DNA of 64,000 nt from Herbidospora galbida. GTDB lineage: Bacteria > Actinomycetota > Actinomycetes > Streptosporangiales > Streptosporangiaceae. The stretch covers positions 1 to 64,000 of the forward strand of contig NZ_SZQA01000029.1 in assembly GCF_005233835.1 (NCBI RefSeq). Reading direction: 5' to 3'. Positions 5,300 to 22,539 of this stretch are shown here, piece by piece. Positions within the stretch are counted from its first letter, which is position 1, and each line of letters starts with the position of its first letter. Both the position numbers and the translations under genes were made by a program. The notes beneath the pieces were generated by a model. It was given only the letters and a program-made list of their open reading frames with translations. It was not told the DNA's origin and searched no databases.

Positions 5300-5314
5300 T
5301 GGTTATCATCACCA
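5300..5314 (+). promoter_or_regulatory. Candidate Zur-type operator before the permease pair
   Basis: The 15-mer TGGTTATCATCACCA is an imperfect inverted repeat. It matches 13 of 15 positions of a generic actinobacterial Zur pattern (TGRNAATNATTNYCA, from memory). It lies about 28 bases upstream of the ATG at 5343, just after a possible -35/-10 pair (TTGTCC at 5271, TACACA at 5294). Repression by a zinc sensor is inferred from the match and from the zinc-handling character of the genes downstream. Confidence 0.4.
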
Positions 5315-5342
5315 CTTTCACGAAGTGCGGGAGCGCCGGCGC

Positions 5343-6356: not shown

Positions 6357-7081
6357 ACCGGCTGACCCAGAGCATGATCCTCATCCTTCTCGGCGGCGCG
6401 GTGCTGCGGATCACCACCGTGTCCACCACCTATCTGAACTACGTCAAGCCCGGGTTCCGGCCCTTCCTCATCGCGGCGGGCGTGGTGGTCCTCGCGCTCG
6501 GCGTCATCGGGCTCGTCCAGGAGTGGCGCGGCGCCCATGCCGACGAACACGACGGGCACGACGGGCATGACGGTCACGCGCACGCGCCCGGCGTGGCCTG
6601 GCTGCTGACGCTTCCGGTGTTCGCCATCTTCCTGATCGCCCCGCCCGCGCTCGGCGCGTTCTCGGCGAAGTCGGAGGAGGCCCAGGCGCGGCCGGTGGCC
6701 GCGGCCGAGCCGTACGACGCCCTCGCGGCCGGGCAGGTCAACGAGATGACCATCGGGGAGTTCGTCGGCCGGGCCTGGGGCGAGGGAGCCGACTCGCTGG
6801 CCGGGCGGCAGGTCAGACTGACCGGGTTCGCCGTGCCGTCGCAGAAGAAGAAGGACCGCTGGTATCTGGCCCGGATCCAGATCGCCTGCTGCGCGGCCGA
6901 CGGCGTCGCCCTGAAGGTGGCCGTGCTGGACGCCGACATGCCGCCGGAGAACACCTGGGTGGAGGTGGTCGGCACCTGGAAGCGCCCGCCGTCGGGAAGG
7001 CTCGAACCCGGGACCATCGCCCCCGAACTGACCGTCACCTCGCTCACCTCGATCCCGCAGCCGGTCGAACCCTACGAGTAG
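6353..7081 (+). CDS. TIGR03943 family permease-associated protein, His-rich
   Basis: A 242-residue protein beginning with GTG 6353 inside the permease stop codon. It has two N-terminal helices, a His/Asp-rich loop at about residues 62-77 (six His with H-D-G-H-D-G-H spacing), one more helix, then a soluble extracytoplasmic domain with an I-A-C-C-A-A-D motif. TIGR03943 proteins are the second subunit of the COG0701 permease pair. The His/Asp loop is a plausible low-affinity zinc (or other divalent metal) binding site, consistent with the Zur-like box ahead of the operon. Its 3' end overlaps the convergent MFS gene by 38 bases. Confidence 0.85.
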   Translation: MNRLTQSMILILLGGAVLRITTVSTTYLNYVKPGFRPFLIAAGVVVLALGVIGLVQEWRGAHADEHDGHDGHDGHAHAPGVAWLLTLPVFAIFLIAPPALGAFSAKSEEAQARPVAAAEPYDALAAGQVNEMTIGEFVGRAWGEGADSLAGRQVRLTGFAVPSQKKKDRWYLARIQIACCAADGVALKVAVLDADMPPENTWVEVVGTWKRPPSGRLEPGTIAPELTVTSLTSIPQPVEPYE

Positions 7082-8321
7082 CCCCCAGAAGGCCCGCCCG
7101 CAGCGCGACCAGCCAGGCCGCGCCGGGCAGGGCCATGCACGCACCGAGGACCGGCAGCAGCGCCGCCGGTCCCAGCGCGTCGAGGAGGGCCCCCGACACG
7201 ACGGCCGAGACGCCCAGCGAGGCCGTCGCCGTCGCGCTCCACAGCGACACCACCCGCCCGCGCAGTTCGTTGGGGGAGTGGCCGAGCAGGACGGCCATCG
7301 ACACGGGCCCGTAGACGACGTCCGCGCAGGCGGCGGCCCCCCAGATCGCCAGCGCTCCCAGGGCGCTCGACGGCAGCCCCAGCGCGGCGGTGAACAGGCC
7401 TTCCCCGAGGCACGACAGCCCGAGGACGACCAGCCGCCGCTCCTCCGGAAGCCGCTTCAGCCGGGGCGCGGCGACCAGCAGCACGACCGCGCCGGCCAGC
7501 CCCTGCACCGCGTAGAACCAGCCCGTGCCTCCGTCGCCCAGGTCGTGGACCTGGACGGCGAGCGCCGTCATGGCCGTGATCGAGCCGCCCAGGCCGAGGC
7601 AGAACACCGCCTCCAGGAGGAGCAGGGCCGAGACGAGCCGGCTGCGCCGGACCGCGCGCAGGCCCTCGCGGAAGGCCCGCAGGCCGCGCGCCGCCTGCGG
7701 CCGGGTGTCGCCGCGCCGGTCCCCGCGCCGGACCTTGGCCGTGAAGTGGAACGACACCAGGAACGACACCGCGTTGACCACGAAGGCCCACCGCCAGCCG
7801 ACCAGCGTGACGGCGGCGGCGCCGGCCAGGCCGCCGACCGCCTGGAACAGCAGGCCGTTGACCTGGACCGCCGCGGCGTAGAGCACGCTCTCCTCCGGCC
7901 GCACCAGCGAGGGCATCCAGGCGTTGCGCGCGGCCTGGAAGACGAAGCCGACGGCGGCCGAGGCGAAGGTGAGCGGGTAGGCGAGCCAGATCGTGCCGGG
8001 ACTGTCGGCCAGCAGGAACGCCAGCGCCAGCACGGCGAGCACGCCGTCGCCGACCAGCATGATCGTGCGGCGGTCGAGCCGGTCGGCCAGCACCCCGCCC
8101 CAGGTGCCGAACAGGATGCCCGGCAGGTAGCGCATGGCCAGTGAGGCGCCCGCCGCGACGGCCGCGCCGGTGTGCTCGTACAGCATGGCGAACACCGCGA
8201 CGGCGGTGAACCAGCCTCCGCAGACGCTGACCAGGTTGCCCAGCCACAGCAGCCGGAAGTCCCGGTTGCCGGCCAGCAGCGAGCCCAGACCGGTGGCGCC
8301 CCGCTCCTCGATGTCGGTCAC
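7044..8321 (-). CDS. EntS-like MFS exporter (probable metallophore efflux)
   Basis: A 425-residue, roughly twelve-helix protein of the MFS_3/EntS type, with G-V-L-A-D-R-L-D-R-R after helix 2 and a central R-G-x-V-x-S-L-W-type motif in the second half. The start chosen is GTG 8321 (V-T-D-I-E-E-R); no good ribosome site precedes it, so a leaderless transcript is possible. It is transcribed divergently from the ABC exporter/RiPP operon, across the intergenic region with two Zur-like boxes. EntS-type carriers export siderophores; export of the RiPP product is the inferred role. Confidence 0.78.
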   Translation of the reverse strand: MTDIEERGATGLGSLLAGNRDFRLLWLGNLVSVCGGWFTAVAVFAMLYEHTGAAVAAGASLAMRYLPGILFGTWGGVLADRLDRRTIMLVGDGVLAVLALAFLLADSPGTIWLAYPLTFASAAVGFVFQAARNAWMPSLVRPEESVLYAAAVQVNGLLFQAVGGLAGAAAVTLVGWRWAFVVNAVSFLVSFHFTAKVRRGDRRGDTRPQAARGLRAFREGLRAVRRSRLVSALLLLEAVFCLGLGGSITAMTALAVQVHDLGDGGTGWFYAVQGLAGAVVLLVAAPRLKRLPEERRLVVLGLSCLGEGLFTAALGLPSSALGALAIWGAAACADVVYGPVSMAVLLGHSPNELRGRVVSLWSATATASLGVSAVVSGALLDALGPAALLPVLGACMALPGAAWLVALRAGLLGATRRVRPAAGSR

Positions 8322-8347
8322 GCGAGGAACGTACCGGCTAAAGAAAA

Positions 8348-8362
8348 TGAAAACCATCCCCA
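8348..8362 (-). promoter_or_regulatory. Candidate Zur-type operator, MFS side
   Basis: TGAAAACCATCCCCA matches 12 of 15 to 13 of 15 positions of the same Zur-like pattern, depending on how the centre is scored. It lies 27 bases upstream of the MFS start and about 30 bp, centre to centre, from the box at 8378-8392. That is close to three helical turns, so both sites would lie on the same face of the DNA. Confidence 0.4.
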
Positions 8363-8370
8363 AAATCTCG

Positions 8371-8400
8371 TTGACAATGAAAATCGTTCTCGCCTAGCGT
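8371..8400 (+). promoter_or_regulatory. Promoter of the RiPP operon with embedded Zur-type operator
   Basis: A consensus -35 (TTGACA, 8371-8376) is followed after 18 bp by TAGCGT (8395-8400) as -10. The spacer contains TGAAAATCGTTCTCG (8378-8392), a close match to the actinobacterial Zur box whose left half TGAAAAT is perfect. A protein bound there would block RNA polymerase. The first gene starts 35 bases downstream at GTG 8435, behind GGAAGGAGG. Fur-family boxes look alike, so iron control cannot be excluded. Confidence 0.55.
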
Positions 8401-8434
8401 CTCCCTCGGCTCACCCGTCGGAAGGAGGCGAAAC

Positions 8435-10189
8435 GTGCTGGTGCGGCGGCGCATGCTGAAGTTGGCGCGGGGCGCCTCCGGTCCCGTGGCGGCGACCGCC
8501 CTGCTCTCGCTCTGTGCCACGGCGGCGGGGGCGGGGCAGGCGGTCGCGCTCGCCGAGACGATCCGGCGCGCCCTCATCTCCGGCGCGCCGGATCCGGCCG
8601 GCGTGGGTGGGCCGCTGGCCGTGACGGGCCTGCTCGTCGTGCTGCGCTGCCTGCTGTTATGGGGCCGCGACCAGGCGGCGAACCGGACGGCGTCGCTCGT
8701 GCGGGCCCGGCTGCGGCTGCGCCTGGCCGATCGGCTGCTCGATCTCGGGCCCGGTCACACCGTCACCAGGCCGGCCGGGACGCTGCGGACCACGATCGCC
8801 GACGGCGTGGAGGCGATCCGGGCCTACGTGGGCTTCTACCTGCCGCAGGTCGTCGTGAGCCTGGGCGGTCCGCTGATCGTCGTGGCCGTGCTGACCTGGC
8901 AGGATCCGGTGGCGGGCGCGATCACCGGTGCCTGCGTGGTGCTGGTGCCCGCGTCCCGGCCGTTCTGGCGGCGGATCATGGGCGCGCGTTCCCAGCGGCA
9001 CTGGGCGGCGTACGAGGACTTCGCCGCCCGGGTCCTGGACGCCCTGCAGGGCATGACGACCCTGAAGGCGCTGGGCGCGACCGGCGTCTACGGGCACCGG
9101 TTACGCCGCGACGCCCTCGCGCTCTACCGCGCGACCATGGGCGACCTGGCCGCCTCCAGCGCCGTCTACGTGATCAGCGCGTTCCTCCTGACGGCGGGCA
9201 CCGCCCTGTCGGTGGTGGTGGCCGCGATCCGCCACTCCACCGGGCAGCTCGACGCGGCCGGCCTGCTGCTGGTCGCCTGGCTGACCGCCGAGGCCTTCCG
9301 GCCGGTGCTGGAACTGCAGAACTACTGGCACGAGGGCTTCCACGGCCTGGCCGCCGGCAAGGGCGTCTTCGCGCTGCTGGACGCCGACGCGCCCGCGCCC
9401 GCGCCGGTCGCGCCCGTCACGAGGGGGCCGTCGAACCGGCCGCCCCGACTGGTCCTGCGCGAGGTCACCTTCGCCTACCCGGGCGCCCACCCGGGCACGG
9501 GCCGGCCCGCGCTGCGCGGGGTCACCCTGGAGATCGAACCGGGCACCACCCTGGCCGTCACCGGGCGGTCGGGATCGGGCAAGTCCACGCTGGTCAACCT
9601 GCTCCAGCGCTACTTCGACCCGCAGAGCGGCCGGATCCTGGCCGACGGCGTCGACCTGCGCGACCTCGACCGCGACGAGGTCCGCGCGATGACCGCCGTG
9701 GTCGCCCAGGACACCTACCTCTTCCACGGCACCGTCGCCGACAACCTCCGCCTGGCCCGGCCCGATGCCGATCTCGCCACGCTCAGGGAGGCCGCCCGCC
9801 GCGCCAGGATCCTCGACGTCGTCGACGGCCTGCCCGACGGCTTCGACACGGTGGTCGGCGAACGCGGCGCCCGGCTGTCGGGCGGCGAGCGCCAGCGGAT
9901 CGCCGTCGCGCGGGCCCTGCTGAAGGACGCGCCGGTGCTCATCCTCGACGAGGCCACCTCGGCCGTCGACGGCGAGACCGAGGCGGCGCTGCGCGAGGCG
10001 CTCGGCGAACTGCGGGCCGGCCGCACCACGATCATGATCGCCCACCGCCTGTCCAGCCTGATCGACGCCGACCTGGTCGCGGTCCTGGACGACGGCCGCC
10101 TGGTGGAGCACGGCGCCCCGGCCGACCTCGCCGGCCGCTCCGGGTCGTGGTCGGACCTGGTGGCGGCGCAGAGCGGGGTGACGCGATGA
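8435..10189 (+). CDS. ABC exporter half-transporter (membrane domain + ATPase) 1
   Basis: A 584-residue fused transporter from GTG 8435, preceded by GGAGG. Six helices fill residues 15-310. The ATPase follows with Walker A G-R-S-G-S-G-K-S-T near 378, signature L-S-G-G-E-R-Q-R near 481, Walker B L-I-L-D-E-A-T-S near 505 and switch His in I-A-H-R-L-S. There is no N-terminal C39 peptidase, so it does not cleave a double-Gly leader. The next gene overlaps by 4 bases and encodes a second half, so the two form a heterodimer, as in exporters of siderophore and RiPP clusters. It is the first gene of the predicted metallophore operon. Confidence 0.88.
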   Translation: MLVRRRMLKLARGASGPVAATALLSLCATAAGAGQAVALAETIRRALISGAPDPAGVGGPLAVTGLLVVLRCLLLWGRDQAANRTASLVRARLRLRLADRLLDLGPGHTVTRPAGTLRTTIADGVEAIRAYVGFYLPQVVVSLGGPLIVVAVLTWQDPVAGAITGACVVLVPASRPFWRRIMGARSQRHWAAYEDFAARVLDALQGMTTLKALGATGVYGHRLRRDALALYRATMGDLAASSAVYVISAFLLTAGTALSVVVAAIRHSTGQLDAAGLLLVAWLTAEAFRPVLELQNYWHEGFHGLAAGKGVFALLDADAPAPAPVAPVTRGPSNRPPRLVLREVTFAYPGAHPGTGRPALRGVTLEIEPGTTLAVTGRSGSGKSTLVNLLQRYFDPQSGRILADGVDLRDLDRDEVRAMTAVVAQDTYLFHGTVADNLRLARPDADLATLREAARRARILDVVDGLPDGFDTVVGERGARLSGGERQRIAVARALLKDAPVLILDEATSAVDGETEAALREALGELRAGRTTIMIAHRLSSLIDADLVAVLDDGRLVEHGAPADLAGRSGSWSDLVAAQSGVTR

Positions 10190-11976
10190 CGTCCGCGTCG
10201 CCGGCCGTCAAGGGCCGGGGTGTCGCCGGGCTGCTCCGCGTGCTGTCCGGGCACCTGCGTCCGTTCGGCCTCTCGGTGCTGTTCGCCGTCGTCAACCAGG
10301 CGGCCGGGATGAGCGCGGTCGTGCTCGCCGCCGCCGCTGCGGGCCGGGCCCTGTCCGGGGCGGGCACGGCGGAGCTGTGGCCGATGTTCTGGTGGACCCT
10401 CGGCCTGACGGCGCTGCGCGCGGCGGCCAACTGGGTCGAGTCGTGGATCTCCCACGAGCTGTCCTTCCGCGTCCTGGCCCAGATCCGTCAGTGGCTCTAC
10501 GGGGCCTTCGCCCGGATCGCCCCCGGCGGGCTGGTCCGCAGGCGCGGGGGCGATCTGGTCGTCCGGGCGCTGCGCGACAGCGAGAGCCTGGAGATCTTCT
10601 ACGCGCACACCTCGATCTACATCGCGGCGGCCCTGGTCGTCACCCCCTCGGCCGTTGTGGCGATGGGGTCGATCGGCGGCCTCCGGGCGGCCGTCGCGCT
10701 GGCCCCCTGGCTGATCGCCGCGCTGGCGCTGCCTCTCGCGCTGCGCCGGGCCGGGACGCGCCACGGCGCCGACCTCAACCGAGCCCTCACCGCGATGAAC
10801 GTCGAGGTCACCGACCTGGTGCACGGTCTGCGCGAGACCCTCTCCTTCGGCGGCGGTCCCGACCTGCTGGCCCGGCTGCGGGCGGCCGATCGCCGCCTGG
10901 CCTCGGCGGAGCGCCGGCAGAGCCTCCGCGCCGGGCTGGAGACCGTCGCCGGCGGGATCGCGATCGGCGGCGCGAGCCTGAGCGTCCTGGTGACCGGGCT
11001 GGACGGCGGGCTTCCCGCGCCCGCGCTGCTGGCCTCGGTCGCCCTGGCGGGCGCCGCGTTCACCCCGATCACGATGCTGCTCAACGTCACCCGGGTGTGG
11101 GGGATCACCTCCGACTCCGCCGACCGCGTCTTCGACCTCCTGGAGGAGCCGGCCGCCGTCGCCGACACCGGCGCCGCCGCGCTCCCCGTCCTGACCGGAC
11201 CTCCGGCGGTCGAGTTCGACCAGGTGGTGTTCGGTTACGACGAGACCCGCCCGGTGCTGCGCGGTGTCTCGCTGACCGTTCCGGCCGGGACGACGCTCGC
11301 CCTGGCGGGCGCGACGGGCGCGGGCAAGTCGACCCTGGCCCACCTGCTGCTGCGGCACTTCGACCCGGCCGCCGGCGCCGTCCGCGTCGGGGGCGTCGAC
11401 CTGCGGGACCTGCCCCTGGACGACCTGCCCGAACTCGTCTGCCACGTGCCGCAGGAGGCGTTCCTCTTCCACGACACCCTGCGCGCCAACCTGGAACTGG
11501 CCCGGCCCGGGGCGTCCGCCGACGACCTCGCCCACGCCTGCGCCGACGCCCGCGTCACCCCCTTCCTGGAGAGGCTGTCCGACGGCCTCGACACCGTCGT
11601 CGGGGAACGGGGGGCCGCGCTGTCGGGCGGCGAGCGGCAGCGGGTCGCCATCGCCCGCGCGCTGCTGCGCGACCGCCCGGTGCTGGTTCTGGACGAGTCG
11701 TCCAGCCAGCTCGACGCCCTCTCGGAACGCGAGCTGCAGGCCGCGCTCGACCGGGTCGGGAACGGGCGCACCACCCTGGTCATCGCCCACCGGCTCACCA
11801 CGCTCCGGCACGCCGACCTGGTCGCCGTGCTGGACCACGGCCGCATCGCCGACGTCGGCGGACACGCCGAACTCCTGGCGCGGTGCGAGCCCTACCGACG
11901 TCTCGTCCAGGCGCAGGCGGACGCCGCCGCGCTCCTGGACGGGCGGCCCCGTCCCGACGACGACGCGAGGAGGTGA
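10186..11976 (+). CDS. ABC exporter half-transporter 2
   Basis: A 596-residue partner of the preceding gene (ATGA overlap). It has a six-helix domain, then Walker A G-A-T-G-A-G-K-S-T near 374, signature L-S-G-G-E-R-Q-R near 478 and Walker B V-L-V-L-D-E-S-S-S near 500. The D-E-S-S-S variant replaces the usual D-E-A-T-S while keeping the catalytic Glu. It lacks a peptidase domain. Its stop is only 6 bases from the start of the precursor-like peptide, whose ribosome site GAGGAGG is embedded in its last codons. Likely role: export of the modified peptide as a heterodimer with the 8435 gene. Confidence 0.88.
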   Translation: MTSASPAVKGRGVAGLLRVLSGHLRPFGLSVLFAVVNQAAGMSAVVLAAAAAGRALSGAGTAELWPMFWWTLGLTALRAAANWVESWISHELSFRVLAQIRQWLYGAFARIAPGGLVRRRGGDLVVRALRDSESLEIFYAHTSIYIAAALVVTPSAVVAMGSIGGLRAAVALAPWLIAALALPLALRRAGTRHGADLNRALTAMNVEVTDLVHGLRETLSFGGGPDLLARLRAADRRLASAERRQSLRAGLETVAGGIAIGGASLSVLVTGLDGGLPAPALLASVALAGAAFTPITMLLNVTRVWGITSDSADRVFDLLEEPAAVADTGAAALPVLTGPPAVEFDQVVFGYDETRPVLRGVSLTVPAGTTLALAGATGAGKSTLAHLLLRHFDPAAGAVRVGGVDLRDLPLDDLPELVCHVPQEAFLFHDTLRANLELARPGASADDLAHACADARVTPFLERLSDGLDTVVGERGAALSGGERQRVAIARALLRDRPVLVLDESSSQLDALSERELQAALDRVGNGRTTLVIAHRLTTLRHADLVAVLDHGRIADVGGHAELLARCEPYRRLVQAQADAAALLDGRPRPDDDARR

Positions 11977-11982
11977 TTCGTG

Positions 11983-12078
11983 ATGAAGGTGACGAAGCTG
12001 AAGGTCGCCCAGGTCCGGGCGAGCGTGCACTCGAACAACCACTCGACCGTGACCCGGTCCAGCGTGGCCTGGCGCTAG
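11983..12078 (+). CDS. Putative RiPP precursor peptide (31 aa)
   Basis: A short open frame from ATG 11983 (or GTG 11980), with a strong ribosome site AGGAGG 9 bases before the ATG. The N-terminal dozen residues (M-K-V-T-K-L-K-V-A-Q-V-R) are basic/hydrophobic and leader-like. The remainder is rich in Ser, Thr, Asn, Val and His (Ser14, 17, 21, 26, 27; Thr22, 24; His16, His20) and ends in Trp-Arg. It has no Cys, Asp or Glu. Two His-Ser pairs are four residues apart (H16-S17, H20-S21). Position between exporter and YcaO genes, size and composition make it the substrate of the YcaO/TfuA enzymes. Leader/core border and modified residues are not known. Confidence 0.75.
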   Translation: MKVTKLKVAQVRASVHSNNHSTVTRSSVAWR

Positions 12079-12087
12079 CCGGCCCAC

Positions 12088-12128
12088 CCACGGGCGGGGA
12101 CGCGCGCGTATCGCGTCCCCGCCCGTGG
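12088..12128 (+). terminator. Perfect 17-bp hairpin after the precursor gene
   Basis: Left arm 12088-12104 and right arm 12112-12128 are perfect reverse complements (CCACGGGCGGGGACGCG and its complement), with a 7-base loop. No T-tract follows. Placed between precursor and biosynthetic genes, it probably acts as a partial terminator or an RNA 3'-end stabiliser, so that precursor mRNA exceeds enzyme mRNA, a common arrangement in RiPP operons. The next gene starts 32 bases later. Confidence 0.75.
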
Positions 12129-12159
12129 TCCTCGCAGCGTAGAGCAGGAAGGAAAGCCC

Positions 12160-12897
12160 ATGGAGCCCACCGGCCGGTACGCCGGCGGGGTGTCGTTCGT
12201 CCCGACTCAGGACGGCTGGCTGGTGCACACCCCAGGAGAGGACTTCCTCGCCGTGTCCGCGCCCGAGGGCGACCGCCCCGATCGTCCGCCGCTCGACGAC
12301 CCCGACCTGACGGAGGTCTTCGCCGAAGAGGGCGTGCTGGAGCCGGTCCCGGCGCGCCGGCCGGGCGCGGTCGCCCTGACCGGTGACGGGCCGCTGTTCG
12401 AGGCGGTCGGCCTCCTGCTCGACCGGGCCGGCCTGACCGCCGAGGACGAGGAGGTCGCGGTGCGGGTCGCCGTCGCCCCCTGGCTTCGCGACCGGCTGTT
12501 CCGGCGGCTCGACGCCGAGGCCCGGGACACCGGCACCGCGTTGCACGTCGGGTTCGCCGAAGGGCGGCGCTGGTATGCCGGTCCCTTCTGGACGGGCCCC
12601 GCGACCGCCTCCTACGAGGATCTGCGGCTGCGCCGCCTGGCCGCCTCGCCGTGGCCGGAGGAGCTGGGCGCCCACTGGGCGTGGCTCGACGCCGGCGGCG
12701 CTCCGGAGCCCGGCCCGGCGCACCCGCCCGGGGCGCACGTCGCCGCCGCGCTGATCGTCGCGGACGTGTGGGCGTACCTCCACGGCCGGGACGCCCCGGG
12801 AACGGGGGTCCAGGCGGGCTTCGACCCGGCGACCGGGCGGCTCACCCGGCATCCCGTGCTGCCGGTGCCCGGCGGGCTCATGACGGAGCAGCCGTGA
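12160..12897 (+). CDS. Degenerate E1/ThiF-like TOMM partner (probable leader-peptide binder)
   Basis: A 245-residue protein from ATG 12160 behind GGAAGGAAAG. Residues 7-60 could be a winged-helix RiPP recognition element. Residues 71-91 (V-A-L-T-G-D-G-P-L-F) look like a worn Rossmann G-x-G-x-L strand. Residues 139-160 (Y-A-G-P-F-W-T-G-P-A-T-A-S-Y-E-D-L-R-L-R-R-L) resemble the ocin-ThiF 'P-G-x-x-x-C-x-x-C-L-x-x-R' segment, but both zinc Cys are replaced. Ocin-ThiF proteins hand the precursor to YcaO cyclodehydratases. The family call rests on these weak motifs and on context; the shortness and lost Cys suggest a binding-only role. Confidence 0.55.
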   Translation: MEPTGRYAGGVSFVPTQDGWLVHTPGEDFLAVSAPEGDRPDRPPLDDPDLTEVFAEEGVLEPVPARRPGAVALTGDGPLFEAVGLLLDRAGLTAEDEEVAVRVAVAPWLRDRLFRRLDAEARDTGTALHVGFAEGRRWYAGPFWTGPATASYEDLRLRRLAASPWPEELGAHWAWLDAGGAPEPGPAHPPGAHVAAALIVADVWAYLHGRDAPGTGVQAGFDPATGRLTRHPVLPVPGGLMTEQP

Positions 12898-14213: not shown

Positions 14214-15598
14214 GCCATCCGCTGCTCGACCCCCGTACCGGGCCGATCACCCGTCTCGACCAGGTGCCCCCCGAGCCCTGGTGGCCGGCCGGGCTGAACG
14301 TGTGCACGGCCTCGGTCGCGGCGATCTCGGACCTCCTGCCCTGGCCGGCCGACCGGGTGGCGACCGGCACCGCCTTCCACGACCCCGGCCGGGCCCTGGC
14401 GAGCGCCGCCGGTGAGGCGATCGAACGCTACTGCGGCAACTTCGTCCCGGCGGACCTGCGCCGGGCGACCCACGCGGAACTGACCGCCGCCGGGGAGAAC
14501 GCCCTCGACCCGGCGACGCTCGCGCTCTACTCCGCGAGCCAGTACGCCGAACCGGGCTGCCCCTTCGTCCCCTTCACCGCCGACCTGCCGGTGCTCTGGA
14601 TCAGGGGATCCACCCTGGACGGGCCGCCGGTGTGGGTGCCCGCCTCCCTGGTCTTCGTCAACTACCTCGTGCCGCCGCGCGCGGCCGAGCCCCCCACCAA
14701 CTACGCCATGCTGGCCGGTCTGGCGGCCGGGCCCGACCTGCGCTCCGCGCTGACCTCGGGGCTGGAGGAGGTCATCGAGCGGGACGCCACCGTCATCTGG
14801 TGGGCCAACCGCCTCCCGGCCGATCCGGTGGAGGTGGCCGACGCCCGGCTGGCGCATCTGCTGCGCCCCGACCCGTCGCTCGGGCCGGGCTGGGGCCGGG
14901 CCCCCGGAGCCGACGGGGATCTCCGCTACCGGGTGGTGCGCATCCCCACGACGTTCGACGTCGCGGTGATCGGCGTCCTGCTCCACGACCCGGCCCTCGG
15001 CATCCACACCTTCGGCGTCGCCGCCCGGCCCGATCCGGCGCACGCGGTGGCCAAGGCGATGGCCGAGGCGGTCACCCTGCGGATCTACTCCCTCGGCCTG
15101 CTGACGCCCGACGGCGCGATCCACCGGGCCGTCGAGGACGGCGTGCTCAGCCCGGACATGCTCAAGCCGCACCGATCCGACCGCGCCTACGCCCGGTCGT
15201 ACCGGAGCGACTTCCGGGACGTGGTGGACCTCGCCTGCCACAGCCAGATCTGGCTCGACCCCGCGATGGCGAAGGAGCTGGCACCCATCACCGGTGCGGG
15301 CGAGCCGGTCGGGCTGGACGCGCTGCCGACGATCACCGGCGACGTCCGCCGCGCCTACGCCGACCGGGTCCGGGCGCTGGGCCTGCGCGTCCACGCCGTC
15401 GACCTCACCACCCCCGACGTGGCCGCGACCGGGGCCCGGGTGGTCCGCGTGGTCGTCCCCGGCGCCTACTCCAACCCGCCCGCGGCCTTCCCCTTCCTCG
15501 GCGGCGACCGCCTCTACACCGATCCGGTGCGCCTCGGGCTGCGCGCCGCCCCGATCACGGAGGCCGACGTCAACCTCGTCCCGCTCCCGCACACCTGA
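14210..15598 (+). CDS. YcaO cyclodehydratase (TOMM type)
   Basis: A 462-residue YcaO protein. All three ATP-binding motifs are visible: S65-x3-E69-x2-E72-R73, then S183-x3-E187-x2-E190-R191, then E286-x4-R291. The C-terminus ends V-P-L-P-H-T, the P-x-P tail characteristic of azoline-forming YcaO enzymes. It should phosphorylate the amide carbonyl during cyclisation of Ser/Thr in the precursor to (methyl)oxazolines, with the E1-like protein presenting the leader. Because the precursor has no Cys, thiazolines are not expected. A G/C-rich 8-base gap separates it from the next YcaO gene, a paralogue. Confidence 0.88.
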   Translation: MSHPLLDPRTGPITRLDQVPPEPWWPAGLNVCTASVAAISDLLPWPADRVATGTAFHDPGRALASAAGEAIERYCGNFVPADLRRATHAELTAAGENALDPATLALYSASQYAEPGCPFVPFTADLPVLWIRGSTLDGPPVWVPASLVFVNYLVPPRAAEPPTNYAMLAGLAAGPDLRSALTSGLEEVIERDATVIWWANRLPADPVEVADARLAHLLRPDPSLGPGWGRAPGADGDLRYRVVRIPTTFDVAVIGVLLHDPALGIHTFGVAARPDPAHAVAKAMAEAVTLRIYSLGLLTPDGAIHRAVEDGVLSPDMLKPHRSDRAYARSYRSDFRDVVDLACHSQIWLDPAMAKELAPITGAGEPVGLDALPTITGDVRRAYADRVRALGLRVHAVDLTTPDVAATGARVVRVVVPGAYSNPPAAFPFLGGDRLYTDPVRLGLRAAPITEADVNLVPLPHT

Positions 15599-15606
15599 GA
15601 GATCCG

Positions 15607-16785
15607 ATGGACGTCCTGCTCGACCCCCGCACCGGGCTGGTCACCCGGATGGAGACCCGGCGCAGCCACGCCGTGCTCCACACCGCGACCGCCGAACTGG
15701 CCGCCACCGGCCGGTTCGGCCACCCGCTCGGCAACCCCGTCGTCGGAGGCGCGTCCTTCGGCGACCCCGGACGCGCCCGGCTCAGGGCGCTGGGCGAGGC
15801 CGCCGAACGCTACGCCGGCCACCTGGTCCCGGAGGCCGGGCTCAGACGCGCGACCTGGCACGACCTCGACGCCGCCGTGGACCCCGACCGGCTGGCCCTC
15901 TACTCCCCGGACCAGCACGACCGCCCCGATTTCCCGTTCGCGGGCCTGCGCCGCGACGACGTGCTCTCGTGGGTGCCCGGACGGGCCGGCGACGGCAGCC
16001 CGGTGTGGGTGCCCGCCTCGCTGGTCTGGCTGTCGTCCGGCGAACACGCGCTGGTACGGGGCCGTCCGGCGCACCTGCCGATCGCGGCGGGCATCGCCGC
16101 CGGGCCGACCCCGGAGGCGGCCCGCGCCTCGGCGCTCGCGGAGGTCCTGGAACGGCACGCCCTGGCCACGGCCTGGCACGGGGGAGCGGCCTTCCCCCTG
16201 GTGGAGGGGCCGCCGCTGCCCGCGCCGATCGGGGCGGAGCTGACGTGGCGGTCGGTGCCCAACGCGCTGGGCGCGCCGGTGGTGCTGTGCGCGGCGTCCA
16301 CGCCGGACGGCCTGCTCGGCGTGGGCTGCGCGACGGGGTCGTCCCGGTCGGCCGCCGCCGAGGCGCTGCGGTCACTGGACGCCCTCGCCGAGGTCGCCGA
16401 GGGGGTGCCGGAGTGGGAGCGCCCGGCCGGACCGCTGGCCACCCACCGGAGCGACCGCCGCTACCTCGACTCCTATGCCCCCGACCTGAGCGACGCCACC
16501 GACGTGCTCTGCACCCTGCAGCTCCTCGCCGACCAGCGCGTCTCCTCGGCCGTCCGCGACCGCCTGGCCGCCGACGGCGTCGCGGGCGCGCCGTCCACCG
16601 CCCCCCGACTCGACGTGATCACGGTCGATCTCACCACCCCCGACCTGGCCGCCCTCGGGCTGCACGTGGCCCGGGTGGTGGTGCCGGGGCTGCGCTCCAC
16701 CGGACCGGCCGCCTACCCCTTCCTCGGCGCGGGCGCCGACCCGCTCCCCGCTCACGTCGAGAGGCTGCCGGTGCCCCATGTCTGA
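15607..16785 (+). CDS. Second, divergent YcaO protein (possibly non-catalytic)
   Basis: A 392-residue paralogue of the preceding YcaO; both share V-W-V-P-A-S-L-V and similar N-termini (L-L-D-P-R-T-G) and a P-x-P type tail (L-P-V-P-H-V). The first motif keeps E64 and E67-R68 but has Arg60 where Ser is usual. The second (S175, E179, E182-R183) is intact. In the third, E252 is kept but the Arg five residues later is Leu257. Loss of two ATP-site positions suggests reduced or no ATPase activity, so it may be a scaffold or heteromeric partner of the 14210 enzyme. It overlaps the next gene by 8 bases. Confidence 0.82.
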   Translation: MDVLLDPRTGLVTRMETRRSHAVLHTATAELAATGRFGHPLGNPVVGGASFGDPGRARLRALGEAAERYAGHLVPEAGLRRATWHDLDAAVDPDRLALYSPDQHDRPDFPFAGLRRDDVLSWVPGRAGDGSPVWVPASLVWLSSGEHALVRGRPAHLPIAAGIAAGPTPEAARASALAEVLERHALATAWHGGAAFPLVEGPPLPAPIGAELTWRSVPNALGAPVVLCAASTPDGLLGVGCATGSSRSAAAEALRSLDALAEVAEGVPEWERPAGPLATHRSDRRYLDSYAPDLSDATDVLCTLQLLADQRVSSAVRDRLAADGVAGAPSTAPRLDVITVDLTTPDLAALGLHVARVVVPGLRSTGPAAYPFLGAGADPLPAHVERLPVPHV

Positions 16786-18028
16786 TCCCTGGAACCTCGA
16801 CCGGCCCGGCCGGAAACTGATCACGACCGGCACCCACCGCGCCGCCACCCTCGACGACACCTGGCGGCGGCTCGGCCCGGCCCTGACCGCCTGCGGGGTG
16901 ACGCGGGTCGCCGACGTCACCGGCCTCGACCTCATCGGCATCCCGGTCGCCACCGCCTACCGGCCCAACGCCCGCAGCCTCTCGGTCAGCCAGGGCAAGG
17001 GCGTCAGCCGCGCGGCGAGCCGCGTGTCGGCGGCCATGGAGGCGGTCGAGCACGCGCACGCGGAGGTGATCGACCGCCCGCTGCGGCTGGCGCGGCCCGT
17101 CGAACTGGGCCCGGCCGCGCTCGACCCGCGCCGGCTGCCGCGGACCGCCGACGGGGTGCTCGACGACGTCACGCCCCTGCTGTGGATCGACGGCGCCGAC
17201 GTCCGCACGGGCGAACCGCGGGCGGTGCCGTACGAGGCGGTGAGCCTCGACTTCACCCTGCCGCCCGCCCTGACCGGGCACGGGCTGTCCCGCGACAGCA
17301 ACGGCCTGGCCGGGGGCAACAGCGCGCTGGAGGCGCTGGTCCACGCGCTGTGCGAACTGATCGAACGCGACGCGGCGGCCCTGTGGGACCTGCGCGACGG
17401 CCCGGCCCAGGCCGGGGCCCGGATCGACGCCGCCACGCTGACCGACCCGGAGACGGCGCTGCTGCTGGACCGCTACGACCGGGCGGGCGTCGAGGTGGCG
17501 CTGTTCGACCTCACCTCCGACCTCGGCGTCCCGGTGGTGCTGTGCCACATCGTGGCGGCCGAACCCGACCCGTTCCGCCCGCTGCCCGCCGCGACGGGGC
17601 TGGGCTGTCACCCGTGCCCGCCCGTCGCGGTCCGGCGGGCGCTGACCGAGGCGGCCCAGTCGCGGCTGATCACCATCTCGGGCGCGCGCGACGACGTCAC
17701 CCGGGAGCGCTACGCGCAGACCACCCACACCGGCGGCGTCGAGGAACTGCGCGACGCGCTCCGCGCGACCCTGCCGTACGCCCGGCCGTTCACCGTGAAG
17801 GGCGCCGACCACGACCTGCTCGGCGACGACCTCGACTGGCTGCTCGACCGGCTGACGGCGGCGGGCCTCGACCAGGTGACCGCGGTCGACCTGACCCGGC
17901 CGTCTCTGGGCGTCCCGGTGGTCAAGGTGCTGGTCCCCGGCCTGGAGGGAGCCGGCGCGCTGACCGGCGAACCGACCCTGCCCGGCCCCCGGGCGCTCGC
18001 CTTCGGATCGGAGCCCGCCGATGCCTGA
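16778..18028 (+). CDS. YcaO protein of the TfuA-partnered (thioamidation) type
   Basis: A 416-residue protein. The start I-P-V-x-x-A-x-R-P-N-A-R-S-L-S-V-S-Q-G-K-G (about 55-75) is the typical opening of YcaO proteins that pair with TfuA. ATP motifs are complete: S84-x3-E88-x2-E91, E193-x2-E196-R197 and E291-x4-R296 (E-A-A-Q-S-R). It lacks the P-x-P tail of azoline-forming relatives. With TfuA, such enzymes replace a backbone amide oxygen by sulfur, as in thioviridamide-type RiPPs and McrA thioglycine. It overlaps TfuA by 8 bases, so one complex is likely. Confidence 0.87.
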   Translation: MSDPWNLDRPGRKLITTGTHRAATLDDTWRRLGPALTACGVTRVADVTGLDLIGIPVATAYRPNARSLSVSQGKGVSRAASRVSAAMEAVEHAHAEVIDRPLRLARPVELGPAALDPRRLPRTADGVLDDVTPLLWIDGADVRTGEPRAVPYEAVSLDFTLPPALTGHGLSRDSNGLAGGNSALEALVHALCELIERDAAALWDLRDGPAQAGARIDAATLTDPETALLLDRYDRAGVEVALFDLTSDLGVPVVLCHIVAAEPDPFRPLPAATGLGCHPCPPVAVRRALTEAAQSRLITISGARDDVTRERYAQTTHTGGVEELRDALRATLPYARPFTVKGADHDLLGDDLDWLLDRLTAAGLDQVTAVDLTRPSLGVPVVKVLVPGLEGAGALTGEPTLPGPRALAFGSEPADA

Positions 18029-19073
18029 GATCGCCGTCTTCGCCGGTCCCACGATCCCGGCCGGCCGGGTCCGCGACGCCCTCCCCGGCCGCGACGTCGC
18101 CGTGCTGCCGCCGGCCGGCCAGGGCGACGTGGCCGCGCTGGTCGCCGCCGAACGCCCCCGCGTCGTCGCCCTCGTCGACGGGGTGTACGAACGCGTCCCC
18201 GCCGTCTGGCACAAGGAGCTCCTCTGGGCGATGTCCGAGGGCGTCGCCGTCGCGGGGGCGGCCAGCATGGGCGCCCTGCGGGCCGCCGAACTCGCCCCGT
18301 ACGGGATGACCGGCGTCGGCGCGGTCTACCGGGCGTTCGTCACCGGCGAACTGACCGACGACGACGAGGTCGCGGTCGCCCACCTGGACGCCGAGCAGGG
18401 CTACCGCCCGGTCAACGAGGCGATGGTCACCATCAGGGCCACGCTGCGCGAGGCCGTGCGCGAAGGAGTGGTCTCCGCCGCCGAGGCGGCGGAGCTGGTC
18501 GCGACGGCGAAGGGGCTGCACTATCCCGACCGGCGCTGGCCCGGCCTGCTGGCGGGCCGGGACACCCCGCTGCGGGAATGGCTGCCCACCGGCCGGCAGG
18601 ACGTGAAGCTCGCCGACGCCCTCGCGCTGCTCGACCTGCTGGCCCGCGACGAGGTCCGGCCCGCCGACCGCGCCTGGCACTTCGAGCAGACCTCCGCGTG
18701 GCGTGCCGTGCGCCCGGCCGGCCGCACCGCCCTGCCCGCCTCCGCCGTCGAGGCCGTCCTGGACGGCCTGCGCGCCGAGGGCCGCTACGACGAACTCGAA
18801 CGCGCCGCCACGCTGCGCCTGGTCGCCGCCGCCACGGGCGCCCGCCCGCACGGCGCCGCCCTCGACGAGTGGATCGCCCTGGTCTCCGGCCGCGTCCCGG
18901 CGGCCGACCTGGCCGACCTCACCCCGGCCGGCCTCGCGGCCTTCGCCGCCGACCAGGCCTGCCTGGTGGCCGCCGCCACCGAAGTCGCGGGCGACGTGCC
19001 CGCCGCGATCCTCGACACCCTGCGCGTCCGCGGCGAGTACGCCGCGCGCGTCGCCCCCAAGGAGAAACGATGA
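18021..19073 (+). CDS. tfuA: TfuA family protein (YcaO partner in thioamide formation)
   Basis: A 350-residue protein with all TfuA landmarks: F-A-G-P-T near residues 7-11, P-P-A-x-x-G-D-V at 30-37, L-V-D-G-V-Y-E near 51, W-H-K-E-L-L-W-A at 63-70 and G-A-A-S-M-G-A-L-R-A-A-E-L at 79-91. TfuA stimulates YcaO-dependent thioamidation, probably by delivering sulfide. The family is best known from trifolitoxin-like and archaeal thioglycine systems. The ATGA overlap with the binding-lipoprotein gene makes the biosynthetic and uptake genes part of the same operon. Confidence 0.9.
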   Translation: MPEIAVFAGPTIPAGRVRDALPGRDVAVLPPAGQGDVAALVAAERPRVVALVDGVYERVPAVWHKELLWAMSEGVAVAGAASMGALRAAELAPYGMTGVGAVYRAFVTGELTDDDEVAVAHLDAEQGYRPVNEAMVTIRATLREAVREGVVSAAEAAELVATAKGLHYPDRRWPGLLAGRDTPLREWLPTGRQDVKLADALALLDLLARDEVRPADRAWHFEQTSAWRAVRPAGRTALPASAVEAVLDGLRAEGRYDELERAATLRLVAAATGARPHGAALDEWIALVSGRVPAADLADLTPAGLAAFAADQACLVAAATEVAGDVPAAILDTLRVRGEYAARVAPKEKR

Positions 19074-20011
19074 AGAAACCCCTTTCGGCCCTGGCCGCCC
19101 TCGCCCTGCTGACCGGATGCGCGGCGCCCGCCCCGTCCGCCCCGGCGGCGGCGGTTCCCGCGCCCGTCCAGGTGACCAACTGCGGCGACGTCTACACCTA
19201 CGCCGAGCCGCCGCGGCGGATCGTCACCTCCAGCACCGTCGCCACCGAGGTCGTGCTGGCCCTGGGCCTGAAGGACCGGATGGCCGGCACCGTCGCGGCC
19301 ACCGACATCATGCGCGAGTACGCCGCCGACCTGACCGGCGTGAAGGTGATCTCCGAATCGGCCTTCCCGCCGCCGTCCAAGGAGGTCGTCTACTCGGCCG
19401 CCCCCGACCTGGTGGTCAGCGGCTACCCCGACGACTACGGCCCCAAGGCCCTCGGCGACCGCGCCGTCCTGCGCAAGGAGGGCGTCAACAGCCACCTGCT
19501 GTCGGCGAGCTGCCCCGGCGCCACCGCCGGAGTCGAGCAGACCTACGAGGACCTGCGCGCCCTGGGCCGCGTCTTCGGCGTGGAGGACAGGGCCGAACGG
19601 CTCGTCGCCGCGCTCAAGGCGGAGGTGGACGCCGTCACCCCGGTCACGCCCGCCCTGCGGGTCTTCGACTACGCCGGAGGCAAGGACAAGCCGCTGACCA
19701 GCGGGGCCAACACCCTCGCGTTCGACCTGTTCCGCCGGGCCGGCGGGGAGAACGTCTTCCCCGAGACCACCGCGTTCGGGCAGGTCTCCTGGGAGGAACT
19801 GGTCGAGCGCGACCCCCAGGTGATCGTCGTCGAGGACCAGGCCTTCGAACCGGCCGACGAGGCGATCGCCTGGATGCGCTCCTACGCCCCGATCAAGGAC
19901 GTCACGGCGGTGAAGGAGAACCGGTTCGTCGTCATCCCCGTCAACGACCTGCAGCCCGGTCTGCGCAGCGGGCGCGCGCTCAAGGCGCTGGCCGAGGGCT
20001 TCGCCCGTTGA
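19070..20011 (+). CDS. Siderophore-type ABC substrate-binding lipoprotein
   Basis: A 313-residue protein with a signal peptide and lipobox L-L-T-G-C (Cys17), an Ala/Pro linker and a FecB/BtuF-type two-lobe binding domain (P-R-R-I-V-T-S-S-T-V-A-T-E near the start, P-D-L-V-V-S-G-Y in the middle). Family members bind ferric siderophores, haem, cobalamin or other metal chelates outside the cell. Being translationally coupled to tfuA and followed by its permease and ATPase, it probably captures the metal-loaded RiPP. A zinc or other metal chelate is as possible as iron. Confidence 0.88.
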   Translation: MKKPLSALAALALLTGCAAPAPSAPAAAVPAPVQVTNCGDVYTYAEPPRRIVTSSTVATEVVLALGLKDRMAGTVAATDIMREYAADLTGVKVISESAFPPPSKEVVYSAAPDLVVSGYPDDYGPKALGDRAVLRKEGVNSHLLSASCPGATAGVEQTYEDLRALGRVFGVEDRAERLVAALKAEVDAVTPVTPALRVFDYAGGKDKPLTSGANTLAFDLFRRAGGENVFPETTAFGQVSWEELVERDPQVIVVEDQAFEPADEAIAWMRSYAPIKDVTAVKENRFVVIPVNDLQPGLRSGRALKALAEGFAR

Positions 20012-21000
20012 GGGTCCGCGGCTCGGTGGCGCTGCTCGCGGCGCTCCTCGGGCTGTCGATGGTCGCCGCCGTCGGGCTGGGACCGGTCGACATCCCGTTC
20101 GCCGACGTGTGGCGGATCGTTTTCGGCGCACCGGACGCGCCCGCCGGGCCGCTCGCCGTGATCGTGCGGGACATCCGGCTGCCCCGGGTCCTGCTCGGCG
20201 CGATCGTCGGCGCGGGCCTGGCCGTCACCGGCGCGGTGCTCCAAGGGGTGCTGCGCAACCCGCTGGCCGACCCCTATCTGATCGGGGCCAGTTCGGGGGC
20301 GTCGCTGGGCGCCGTCCTGGCGCTGATGTCCGGCCTGTCGTGGCTGCTTCCGCTGGCCGCCTTCGCCGGCGCCATGGCCACCTTCACGGTGGTGCTGCTG
20401 CTGGCGCGCAACGGCGGCCGGCTGGGGGTCACCCGGCTGATCCTGTCCGGCGTGGCGGTGGCGGCGCTGGCGGAGGCGGCGACGAACTTCATCGTCCTCA
20501 ACGCGCCCGACTCGCAGCTGCGGTCGGCGCTGTTCTGGACTCTGGGCGGGCTGTCGGGGACCCAGTGGAGCGACCTGCCCGTCCCGGCGCTCGTGGTCGT
20601 CTTCTTCGTCGTCTGGTTCCGGCTGCGCTCGGCCGGGCTGAACGCCCTCGTGCTCGGAGAGGAGGGGGCCACGAGCCTCGGCGTCGAGGTGAACCGGCTG
20701 CGGACGCGGCTGGTCGTCGGCTCGGCGATCACGGTCGGCGCGGTCGTGTCGGTCAGCGGCGGCATCGGGTTCGTGGCGCTGATGGTGCCGCACGCCGTCC
20801 GGATGGTGGCCGGCGGCGACAACCGGTGGGTGGTGCCGCTGAGCGCCCTGGCCGGAGGGCTGCTGATGGTGTGGGTGGACGTCGGGGCCCGCCTGCTCAA
20901 CCAGCCCGACGAGATCCCCATCGGGGTCATCACCGCATTGCTCGGCGCGCCGTTCTTCCTGGTGCTGCTGGCCCGCGCCAACCGGAGGGCGCTGTCGTGA
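20008..21000 (+). CDS. FecCD-type ABC permease
   Basis: A 330-residue membrane protein. A TTG at 20008 overlaps the upstream stop (TTGA) and is the most economical start; GTG 20026 is an alternative. It has about ten helices and the FecCD landmarks R-L-P-R-V-L-L-G-A-I-V-G-A-G-L near residue 55, L-R-N-P-L-A-D-P-Y-L-I-G-A-S-S-G near 85, and the G-x-I-x-F-V-A-L-M-V-P-H segment near 255. It forms a homodimeric channel with the ATPase downstream (4-base overlap). Confidence 0.92.
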   Translation: MRVRGSVALLAALLGLSMVAAVGLGPVDIPFADVWRIVFGAPDAPAGPLAVIVRDIRLPRVLLGAIVGAGLAVTGAVLQGVLRNPLADPYLIGASSGASLGAVLALMSGLSWLLPLAAFAGAMATFTVVLLLARNGGRLGVTRLILSGVAVAALAEAATNFIVLNAPDSQLRSALFWTLGGLSGTQWSDLPVPALVVVFFVVWFRLRSAGLNALVLGEEGATSLGVEVNRLRTRLVVGSAITVGAVVSVSGGIGFVALMVPHAVRMVAGGDNRWVVPLSALAGGLLMVWVDVGARLLNQPDEIPIGVITALLGAPFFLVLLARANRRALS

Positions 21001-21755
21001 GCCTGTCTCTGGAGATCGAGGACGTCGCCTGGGCGCCCGTGCTCCACGACATCACCCTGTCGGTGGCGCCGGGGGAGATCCTCGGCCTGATCGGCCCCAA
21101 CGGCAGCGGCAAGTCGAGCCTGCTGCGCTGCGTCTACCGGCGGCGGCGCCCCGACCGGGGCCGGATCCTGGTCGACGGGCTGAACGTGTGGACCGCCGGT
21201 GCGGGCGAGGTGGCCCGCCGGGTGGCCGTCGTCACCCAGGACTCGCCCGCCGACCTGGAGAACAGCGTCGAGCAGATCGTCGCCCTCGGCCGGGTGCCCT
21301 ACCTGGGCGGCCTCGGACGCCTCACCCGCGCCGACCACGACCTCGTCGACGACGCGATGGACCGGTGCGAGGTGCGCGCGCTGGCCCGCCGCCCTTACGC
21401 GCTGCTGTCCGGCGGCGAACGGCAGCGCGTGCACCTGGCCAGGGCGCTGGTTCAGCAGCCCGGCCTGCTCCTGCTCGACGAGCCCACCAACCATCTCGAC
21501 CTGCGTCACCAGGTGGAGCTCCTGCGGCTGGTCCGCTCCCTGCGGGTCACCGTCGTCGCCGCGCTGCACGACCTCCAGCTCGCCGGGGCCGCCTGCGACC
21601 GGCTGGCGGTGCTGGACGGGGGCCGCCTGGTCGCCGACGGCCCGCCCGCGAAGGTCGTCACGACCGGCCTGCTCGCCGAGGTGTACGGCGTGGCCGCGGA
21701 GGTGACCCACGGCCCCGACGGACTGCCCAGGATCAACCTGCCCCTGACCCGCTAG
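20997..21755 (+). CDS. FecE-type ABC ATPase
   Basis: A 252-residue ATPase with Walker A G-P-N-G-S-G-K-S-S near residue 37, Q-loop V-V-T-Q-D-S, signature L-S-G-G-E-R-Q-R near 138, Walker B L-L-L-L-D-E-P-T-N-H-L-D near 158 and switch H in A-A-L-H-D-L. The GTG start lies within the permease stop. It powers the importer formed with the two preceding genes. It is the last gene of the operon and meets the convergent 22429 gene with a 4-base overlap. Confidence 0.92.
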   Translation: MSLSLEIEDVAWAPVLHDITLSVAPGEILGLIGPNGSGKSSLLRCVYRRRRPDRGRILVDGLNVWTAGAGEVARRVAVVTQDSPADLENSVEQIVALGRVPYLGGLGRLTRADHDLVDDAMDRCEVRALARRPYALLSGGERQRVHLARALVQQPGLLLLDEPTNHLDLRHQVELLRLVRSLRVTVVAALHDLQLAGAACDRLAVLDGGRLVADGPPAKVVTTGLLAEVYGVAAEVTHGPDGLPRINLPLTR

Positions 21756-22429: not shown

Positions 22430-22539
22430 GCGGCAGGCTCCCATCGCCCGGTGGCACGGCATGGTCGACTTTCTGGCGCAGACCGTACCGTCTCGGACGA
22501 TCGACGTCCACGGTGCTTCCGCCGCGGACCCGGCGGCGG

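Follow-up and report, generated by a model that had tools for sequence, protein, structure and literature searches.

A Herbidospora operon with Zur-type boxes may encode a ribosomal zinc-scavenging peptide of the streptamidine superfamily

What does a cell make, and perhaps take back, when one operon joins the gene for a 31-residue peptide to YcaO enzymes, two kinds of exporter and a chelate-type importer? The question is raised by the first 64,000 nucleotides of contig NZ_SZQA01000029.1 of Herbidospora galbida (assembly GCF_005233835.1), part of an 8.3 Mb genome and referred to hereafter as the window. An earlier reading of its letters (the sequence-only reading) had proposed a new metal-responsive metallophore system of the ribosomally synthesized and post-translationally modified peptide (RiPP) type, comparable with methanobactin. 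We conclude that the region is probably a Zur-repressed operon for a ribosomal zinc-scavenging peptide (a putative zincophore) and that homology places it in the streptamidine (ami) superfamily, as a divergent branch with two YcaOs that is predicted to add thioamides. The locus comprises 13 intact genes with one divergent pair, a gene of the major facilitator superfamily (MFS) running leftward and 12 genes running rightward.

7044..8321, minus strand: MFS exporter, EntS-like; PF07690, EntS model at E 8.8e-21, below cut-off
8342..8356: Zur-type box 2, AGAAAATGAAAACCA; 16.2 bits, also in close relatives
8372..8386: Zur-type box 1, TGACAATGAAAATCG; 16.3 bits, overlapping a TTGACA hexamer at 8371-8376
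8378-8392: second register of Zur-type box 1; 15.0 bits
8435..10189, plus strand: ABC exporter half 1 (ABC1); best model CydD-like, below cut-off
10186..11976, plus strand: ABC exporter half 2 (ABC2); best model CydC-like, below cut-off
11983..12078, plus strand: RiPP precursor, 31 aa, MKVTKLKVAQVRASVHSNNHSTVTRSSVAWR; recognized by conservation
12088..12128, plus strand: perfect 17-bp hairpin 3' of the precursor; from folding
12160..12897, plus strand: E1-like leader-binding partner, AmiB-like; weak TIGR03882 match, AlphaFold model
12894..14213, plus strand: protein of CocE/S15 fold, AmiC-like; family models, alignment
14210..15598, plus strand: YcaO1, predicted azoline/amidine-type cyclodehydratase; above SagD-family cut-off
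15607..16785, plus strand: YcaO2; a YcaO, below SagD-family cut-off
16778..18028, plus strand: YcaO3; strong Pfam match, in the clade of TfuA-linked YcaOs
18021..19073, plus strand: TfuA, partner of YcaO3; PF07812 at 5.9e-46
19070..20011, plus strand: lipoprotein substrate-binding protein (SBP); Peripla_BP_2
20008..21000, plus strand: FecCD-type permease; FecCD family match
20997..21755, plus strand: importer ATPase; ABC ATPase match
5300..5314: Zur-like site beside the operon, just upstream of a permease and TIGR03943 pair; 15.0 bits

The rightward genes run in the order ABC1, ABC2, precursor, E1-like, CocE-like, YcaO1, YcaO2, YcaO3, TfuA, binding protein, permease and ATPase. Eight of their 11 junctions are overlaps of 4 or 8 bp, as expected from the claim that most of the genes are so linked (the SBP/FecCD overlap holds only with a TTG start), and the other three are spaced by +6, +81 and +8. 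All genes named in the sequence-only reading were open and lay where it had placed them; the gene set needed amending in that the MFS gene probably starts at 8321 and the importer has one permease gene. The operon is syntenic in four Herbidospora species and in Acrocarpospora phusangensis (Streptosporangiaceae), to the limits of the contigs fetched.

Control by Zur was assessed with a weight matrix built from the published Streptomyces motif, tGaNNatSatNNtCa (PMC5472717); we chose the weights, and the loci of types A to E described below were not used. The two boxes at the divergent promoter, where Zur-like boxes had been claimed, were the two best sites of the 64 kb, and in five shuffles nothing scored 15 bits or higher. 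When the genome itself was scanned with a pattern derived from the boxes of this operon and of related loci, allowing for as many as two mismatches, it matched 27 times, compared with five for the reversed pattern (some palindromic sites being counted on both strands). The sole exact match precedes a ZnuA gene (PF01297, 4.6e-75), an ATPase gene, an ABC-3 permease gene and a Fur-family gene, which we name zur solely because it follows the ZnuA genes. A further site is flanked by rpmG-rpmB-rpsN-rpmF (rpmF encoding L32) and a COG0523-type gene, both assigned with Pfam and NCBIfam, and yet another about 170 bp before an rpmE of type B. The surroundings of nine of the 27 sites were inspected, and the rest of these nine, bar the window's own, had no evident link to zinc. 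Because the boxes are of Zur type, zinc is the likely signal; these results support the prediction that the operon is under Zur, and thus zinc, control, which gives the proposed metal response its metal. Iron control was set aside: with a consensus that we take to be that of IdeR, the best match in the window promoter reached 9 of 19 positions, and matches within 1.1 kb upstream of E1 in 37 other loci reached 9-12 of 19.

The pair of genes at 5328-7081 that follows the site at 5300 encodes a permease (ArsP_1) and a TIGR03943 protein, and perhaps belongs to the regulon of the RiPP operon though not to that operon; the same pair adjoins one type A locus (L050) and one type B locus (L060). Two further Zur-like sites of the genome, at 18.5 and 17.2 bits (L163, G000 C23; L162, G000 C44, L068 and L082 in the site scan), have as neighbours a P-loop ATPase gene in one case and small genes without known function in the other.

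Related loci were sought with the E1-like protein. The family search gave a match in 44 of 341 genomes, 20 of them strong (E <1e-40) and of type A by mapping; at E 1e-8 there were matches in 40 of 297 genomes at the level of the order and in 20 of 394 at that of the class, the sets overlapping. Up to 20 kb was fetched around 40 places (L063-L065 duplicate L004, L003 and L005). Type A, to which the window belongs, has the precursor pattern VHSxNH[AS]T...WR, with L replacing V in some. The type A' precursor (L139) ends in LHSGNHAVAAGPFAWE and is accompanied by TfuA and a prolyl oligopeptidase. Types B and E have two YcaOs and a precursor with PQGPGTNALVHxPF or LQGPGTNALVHxPF, often repeated, or QDPTTHALVQxPF. 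Type D has a precursor with SATHSNALVENPF, SASHSNALVENPF or PTCNHALV, one YcaO, two permeases and ABC1/ABC2, and in L140, the only one tested, a SagB/nitroreductase-like protein. In type C, E1 and YcaO are fused, and an F420-type oxidoreductase is encoded in L138 and by a similar gene in L154.

The best site no more than 350 bp upstream was then compared with control windows of the same locus in 42 rows, 39 of them outside type C (L137 was dropped, no precursor being recognized by rule). Of the 39 loci, which span the five subtypes A, A', B, D and E, 33 had a promoter site that outscored no fewer than 95% of control windows, and 25 one that outscored no fewer than 99%; with the three type C rows included, 34 of 42 passed at 95%. 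The rows are not independent, because six (the window and L002-L006) are close kin. The misses were L049, L061, L136, L144, L145 and L146; L049 counts as one because its site lies 378 bp from the precursor, beyond the 350-bp limit, with exporter-gene remnants between. In a separate sample, 199 genomes of the genus to which G566 belongs (probably Streptomyces), AmiB was matched 25 times; L171 and L188 were dropped because no precursor was recognized by rule. All 23 streptamidine-type loci with a recognized precursor carried a Zur-type site of 16.2-24.4 bits, 75-108 bp before the chosen start, while none of 1,410 control windows reached 13.6 bits. Two of the 23 (L164 and L187) are from the genomes of L150 and L149 in the 39-locus test.

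Beside the streptamidine-type binding-protein gene, and near strong Zur-type boxes, L140:7862-9292 and L149:3612-4808 encode repeat-like proteins without a Pfam or NCBIfam match; by eye they resemble the zinc chaperone AztD. Type C (L153, L154, L138) also occurs in relatives of Herbidospora, with an importer, ABC exporters and a precursor of the form SVCVRAHTPAVDxxFAWNEDD. Its Zur-type site is missing in two of three loci and weak in the third, which poses the question of another metal or signal.

The precursor is a real gene, as judged from its conservation, and a chance open reading frame was ruled out on the same ground. Its 31 residues are all identical across three Herbidospora species, with 0-3 synonymous changes, and a homologue lies 5' of the E1 gene in all 14 further type A loci (L046-L059). 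Residues K5, L6, H16, S17, N19, H20, T22, W30 and R31 are invariant among 15 distinct sequences. The ratio of nonsynonymous to synonymous change (pN/pS) was 0.30 in six close loci, and 0.247 versus 0.327 (ratio about 0.76) in all 20 rows, 31 codons being too few for either figure to carry weight. The hairpin that follows the gene had a z-score of -4.88 in the window; hairpins were also present after the precursor in the seven other loci folded, at -1.98 to -4.77 and with differing sequences. Because no T run follows the window hairpin, we read it as a processing or attenuation element and not as a terminator.

Family matches agree with the claim that azoline-type and thioamide-type enzymes, YcaO1/2 and YcaO3-TfuA, respectively, are encoded together. 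The protein that had been called an E1/ThiF-like partner had no Pfam match and only a weak one, below cut-off, to the leader-binding model of thiazole/oxazole-modified microcins (TIGR03882, 6.1e-6); its AlphaFold model (predicted local distance difference test score 87.8, 14-row alignment) favours the claim, the best Foldseek matches including LynD/TruD-type heterocyclases and McbB complexes. AmiB was likewise given a TruD-like fold by Phyre2 in the streptamidine paper (PMC8442711).

The CocE-like protein had been described as a hydrolase. At the positions where we presume the catalytic triad to lie, all nine type A rows of an alignment of 14 carry SW[YFL]C and GWAS or GWAG where the motifs with Asp and His would stand, and only the window row has the Ser, which is absent from the other eight; Ser, Asp and His are kept in all five rows of types B, E and D, three of which are B/E. 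With Asp and His lost, a Ser-Asp-His peptidase is unlikely in the type A branch. The protein is thus probably no such hydrolase, and we doubt its candidacy as an active leader peptidase.

A YcaO tree of 60 rows was rooted at its midpoint, a length filter having removed some second copies. YcaO3, whose gene adjoins that of TfuA, fell in the clade of the seven TfuA-linked rows (support 100/100). In types A, A', B and E the second YcaOs clustered as a single clade (99/99), pointing to an old duplication; the first copies split into two groups of unresolved mutual order, and AmiD-type proteins made a separate clade (99/98). Placement of the L139 rows is unsure because of long branches. Among the operon proteins, Pfam and NCBIfam gave no regulator, no MNIO (multinuclear non-heme iron oxidase, DUF692) enzyme and no flavin dehydrogenase of the AmiE type.

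Exporters and importer genes stand in one operon, in line with the predicted logic of export and re-import. The MFS gene is present in all 14 further type A loci, and precursor, E1, CocE-like, YcaO1, YcaO2, importer and MFS genes occur together in all 12 with a covering contig. Identity of the window's exporter to those of mapped type C and D loci is 40-47% for ABC1 and 37-42% for ABC2. The loci mapped for types A', B, C, D and E have permease and ATPase genes; for L140, L141, L149-L152 and L155 the first mapping gave no match to the binding protein, which a later one showed in L140 and L149. Solved relatives of the binding protein include binders of heme, B12 and chelates of the Fe-hydroxamate type, and not ZnuA. 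The best NCBIfam models of the importer genes are 'putative F420-0 ABC transporter' and B12 families, all below cut-off; such hypothetical names as 'putative F420-0' may cover importers of peptide chelates. Convergent with the importer ATPase gene is one for a protein (21752-22549) without Pfam or NCBIfam match, which is conserved next to the operon in Acrocarpospora as well as in three Herbidospora loci.

The neighbourhood search that the sequence-only reading had suggested found type A in 20 genomes, and showed that its thioamide module is not universal. TfuA-YcaO3 and the ABC exporter are present in seven of the 20 (five Herbidospora-like, including the window, Acrocarpospora and G322), and both are absent at the locus in 11, which keep precursor, YcaO1/2 and importer. 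In the remaining two, L048 and L058, the exporter is gone and the contig ends before the place of TfuA. Remnants of the end of ABC2 were detected in L048 (E 4e-6) and L049 (4e-21), and of the end of TfuA in L049 (4e-15); weaker ones (E 0.001-0.09) came from the beginning of ABC1, in L048, L049 and L055, and from YcaO3, in L055, all E-values referring to a small set of gaps. Those of L049 sit in the MFS-precursor and YcaO2-SBP gaps, where Herbidospora has intact genes. A whole-genome search for TfuA in the 11 genomes lacking it at the locus found none in 10 and one, on another contig, in G292. On the tree this fits losses in about three lineages, of both modules together where visible; repeated gain of both by transfer is the formal alternative. 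Because the two modules seem to have gone jointly and left remnants, the thioamide looks accessory, and the core therefore consists of precursor, E1, CocE-like protein, YcaO1/2, MFS and importer. Thioamide and azoline are thus not a defining pair.

The sequence-only reading had recognized no described system with this gene set. The ami clusters share its E1-like, CocE-like, YcaO, importer and ABC exporter genes: as published in 2021, they hold FecBCDE-like genes, AmiA, AmiB, the hydrolase AmiC, the YcaO AmiD, the dehydrogenase AmiE and two ABC transporters, and clusters of this type, from over 230 species, are of unknown function (PMC8442711). The family is described from Streptomyces albidoflavus J1074; 22 of its sequences had neither motif A nor motif B, and many clusters lacked homologues of amiB, amiX and amiE (PMC8442711). 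AmiE was required although streptamidine is unoxidized, which its authors found compatible with an oxidized part being cut away, and the word 'Zur' is absent from the main text (PMC8442711). The window and ami thus have in common a FecBCDE-type importer, a short precursor, E1-like, CocE/S15-type and YcaO proteins, two ABC transporters and Zur-type sites. They differ in that the window has two YcaOs plus YcaO3-TfuA, a precursor without the ALV motif, no dehydrogenase, a CocE-like protein that has lost its triad, one permease gene instead of two, and an MFS exporter gene facing the operon.

A profile of types A and B (A1) recovered type D loci at 1e-24 to 1e-35, and the HLSATH core that was published is present in the precursor of L150, a type D locus. 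This precursor was matched above cut-off by NF040714, as were the three B/E precursors tried by NF040715; at E 10 neither model matched the precursors of the window, two other type A loci, A', type C and the PTCNHALV form. The window is therefore placed as a homologous, divergent branch outside the named precursor families. The repeat RiPPs of NF040715 (types B and E) share with it the second YcaO clade, CocE, E1, FecCD, ATPase and binding protein and, in eight of 12 mapped loci, the MFS gene; unlike it, they have ALV precursors, often doubled, retain the CocE triad in the three rows aligned and lack TfuA in the mapped loci. An origin on plasmids was rejected, plasmid sequences giving no match to the window precursor; YcaO searches there yielded a Rhodococcus ami cluster, whose precursor (in the record found via a type D YcaO) is annotated 'streptamidine family RiPP', and two Streptomyces YcaO loci with no annotated importer nearby. 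The streptamidine-type cluster of L156, on the linear 533-kb plasmid pNit of Rhodococcus rhodochrous, has a prolyl oligopeptidase gene between importer and precursor.

The window also resembles RiPP clusters with TfuA and YcaO (thioviridamide-like, thiovarsolin; PMC8120280) in the adjacency of these two genes; unlike them, it has the pair as an accessory module of an importer-linked operon with Zur-type boxes. The survey of such clusters notes some with several ycaO genes and includes a prolyl endopeptidase gene in its Figure 5, and the words 'siderophore' and 'metal' are absent from its main text; clusters like L139 or the window may be present in its supplement (PMC8120280). The coelibactin and ethylenediamine-disuccinate systems (PMC6103462) share the Zur-controlled scavenger logic of actinomycetes, their products being, as far as described, not ribosomal; coelibactin is called a 'putative non-ribosomally synthesized peptide' (PMC3430247).

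In the reading that we favour, zinc-loaded Zur would bind the boxes that overlap the TTGACA hexamer and repress the operon, and would leave them when zinc is scarce. The E1-like partner would bind the 31-residue precursor through its leader, YcaO1 and YcaO2 would cyclodehydrate the backbone around VHSxNH[AS]T to azoline or amidine, and YcaO3-TfuA would exchange a backbone oxygen for sulfur. After leader removal the product would be exported through the MFS protein, joined in the window's lineage by the ABC exporter. The loaded chelate would be captured by the lipoprotein and returned by FecCD and the ATPase. Within the HSxNH segment, His side chains together with azoline, amidine or thioamide groups would presumably hold the zinc. 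A wider proposal, which we put forward more tentatively than that for the window and rate at somewhat under an even chance, is that the superfamily at large (A, A', B, D and E) is a class of Zur-controlled zinc-scavenging RiPPs, in which the HLSATH amidine is a leftover fragment, the 'follower' SNALVENPF (matched by VHSxNHAT in the window's branch) is part of the true chelator, and the thioamide of Herbidospora and Acrocarpospora strengthens it.

Several observations weigh against zinc scavenging under Zur. Streptamidine is, to our knowledge, the sole isolated product of the superfamily. It bound none of seven metals, zinc included, by liquid chromatography-mass spectrometry, the chrome azurol S assay was negative, and under metal starvation the delta-amiD strain behaved as the wild type (PMC8442711). 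At 13 bits the window holds nine sites compared with 1.4 per shuffle, so that middling sites also occur elsewhere in it, and the control windows of the cross-locus test are mostly coding DNA. Sites of types B and E are weaker, with five of 11 rows failing; in type C neither L153 nor L154 passes, and L138 does so weakly, at 11.8 bits; and L051 and L060 hold a site elsewhere that outscores the promoter site. It is possible that HLSATH, which lacks most of the segment conserved across subtypes, is not the part that binds, and redundancy with znuABC could hide a starvation phenotype.

The streptamidine results would suit a Zur-controlled RiPP that carries no zinc and acts as a signal or as a competitor in zinc shortage, in which case the importer would recover or sense the peptide. 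The authors of the streptamidine study suspected that metal is imported and suggested signalling or development, and deletion of the amiF importer genes abolished production (PMC8442711), as would fit import-dependent feedback. The operon has no regulator gene, however, its importer is of the chelate type and co-control with znuA and the COG0523-type gene is predicted, and we regard such a role as unlikely. An azole or thioamide antibiotic, exported for self-protection and with an importer for another ligand (cobalamin or an F420 precursor) there by chance, would account for the importer's sub-threshold F420-0 and B12 models, and the TfuA survey attributes antibiotic, antiproliferative or cytotoxic activity to known thioamidated RiPPs (PMC8120280). 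Yet the importer genes recur in all 12 covered type A loci, their permease and ATPase in A', B, C, D and E, and 4-bp overlaps run the operon into the importer behind Zur-type boxes, leaving this reading little chance.

The slightest chance of all goes to a methanobactin-like chelator for copper or mixed metals that would use thioamide and azoline groups as ligands. Thioamides are good Cu(I) binders, and the YcaO3-TfuA pair stands beside azoline-type YcaOs; this pair is, however, absent from the locus in 11 of the 20 type A genomes, which keep the remainder (and not visible in two more), and the boxes are of the zinc type common to znuA and the ribosomal paralogues. The methanobactin-like pairing to which the sequence-only reading had pointed was accordingly rejected as the defining idea, the analogy being weak. 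Methanobactin and other MNIO-made RiPP metallophores resemble the system as peptide metallophores with export and import logic and sulfur-bearing backbone groups; unlike them, the operon has YcaO chemistry, zinc-type boxes and no MNIO found among its proteins. Some of these metallophores are cited in PMC13174530.

The link of Zur-type sites to streptamidine-type precursor operons, predicted here from promoter sequences, appears to be new: among the matches listed in the open-licence PMC literature, with subscription papers mostly outside it, no paper connected YcaO RiPPs with Zur or described a RiPP zincophore. We know of no YcaO-made zincophore; if the favoured reading is true, a ribosomal class would be added to the known zincophores, with the first YcaO-made one known to us. 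The type A branch offers a natural experiment, in that the thioamide module and the ABC exporter are gone in most relatives and the rest is retained. That most of the members tested have a Zur-type box ahead of the precursor is a concrete and cheap reason to re-examine streptamidine clusters under zinc depletion.

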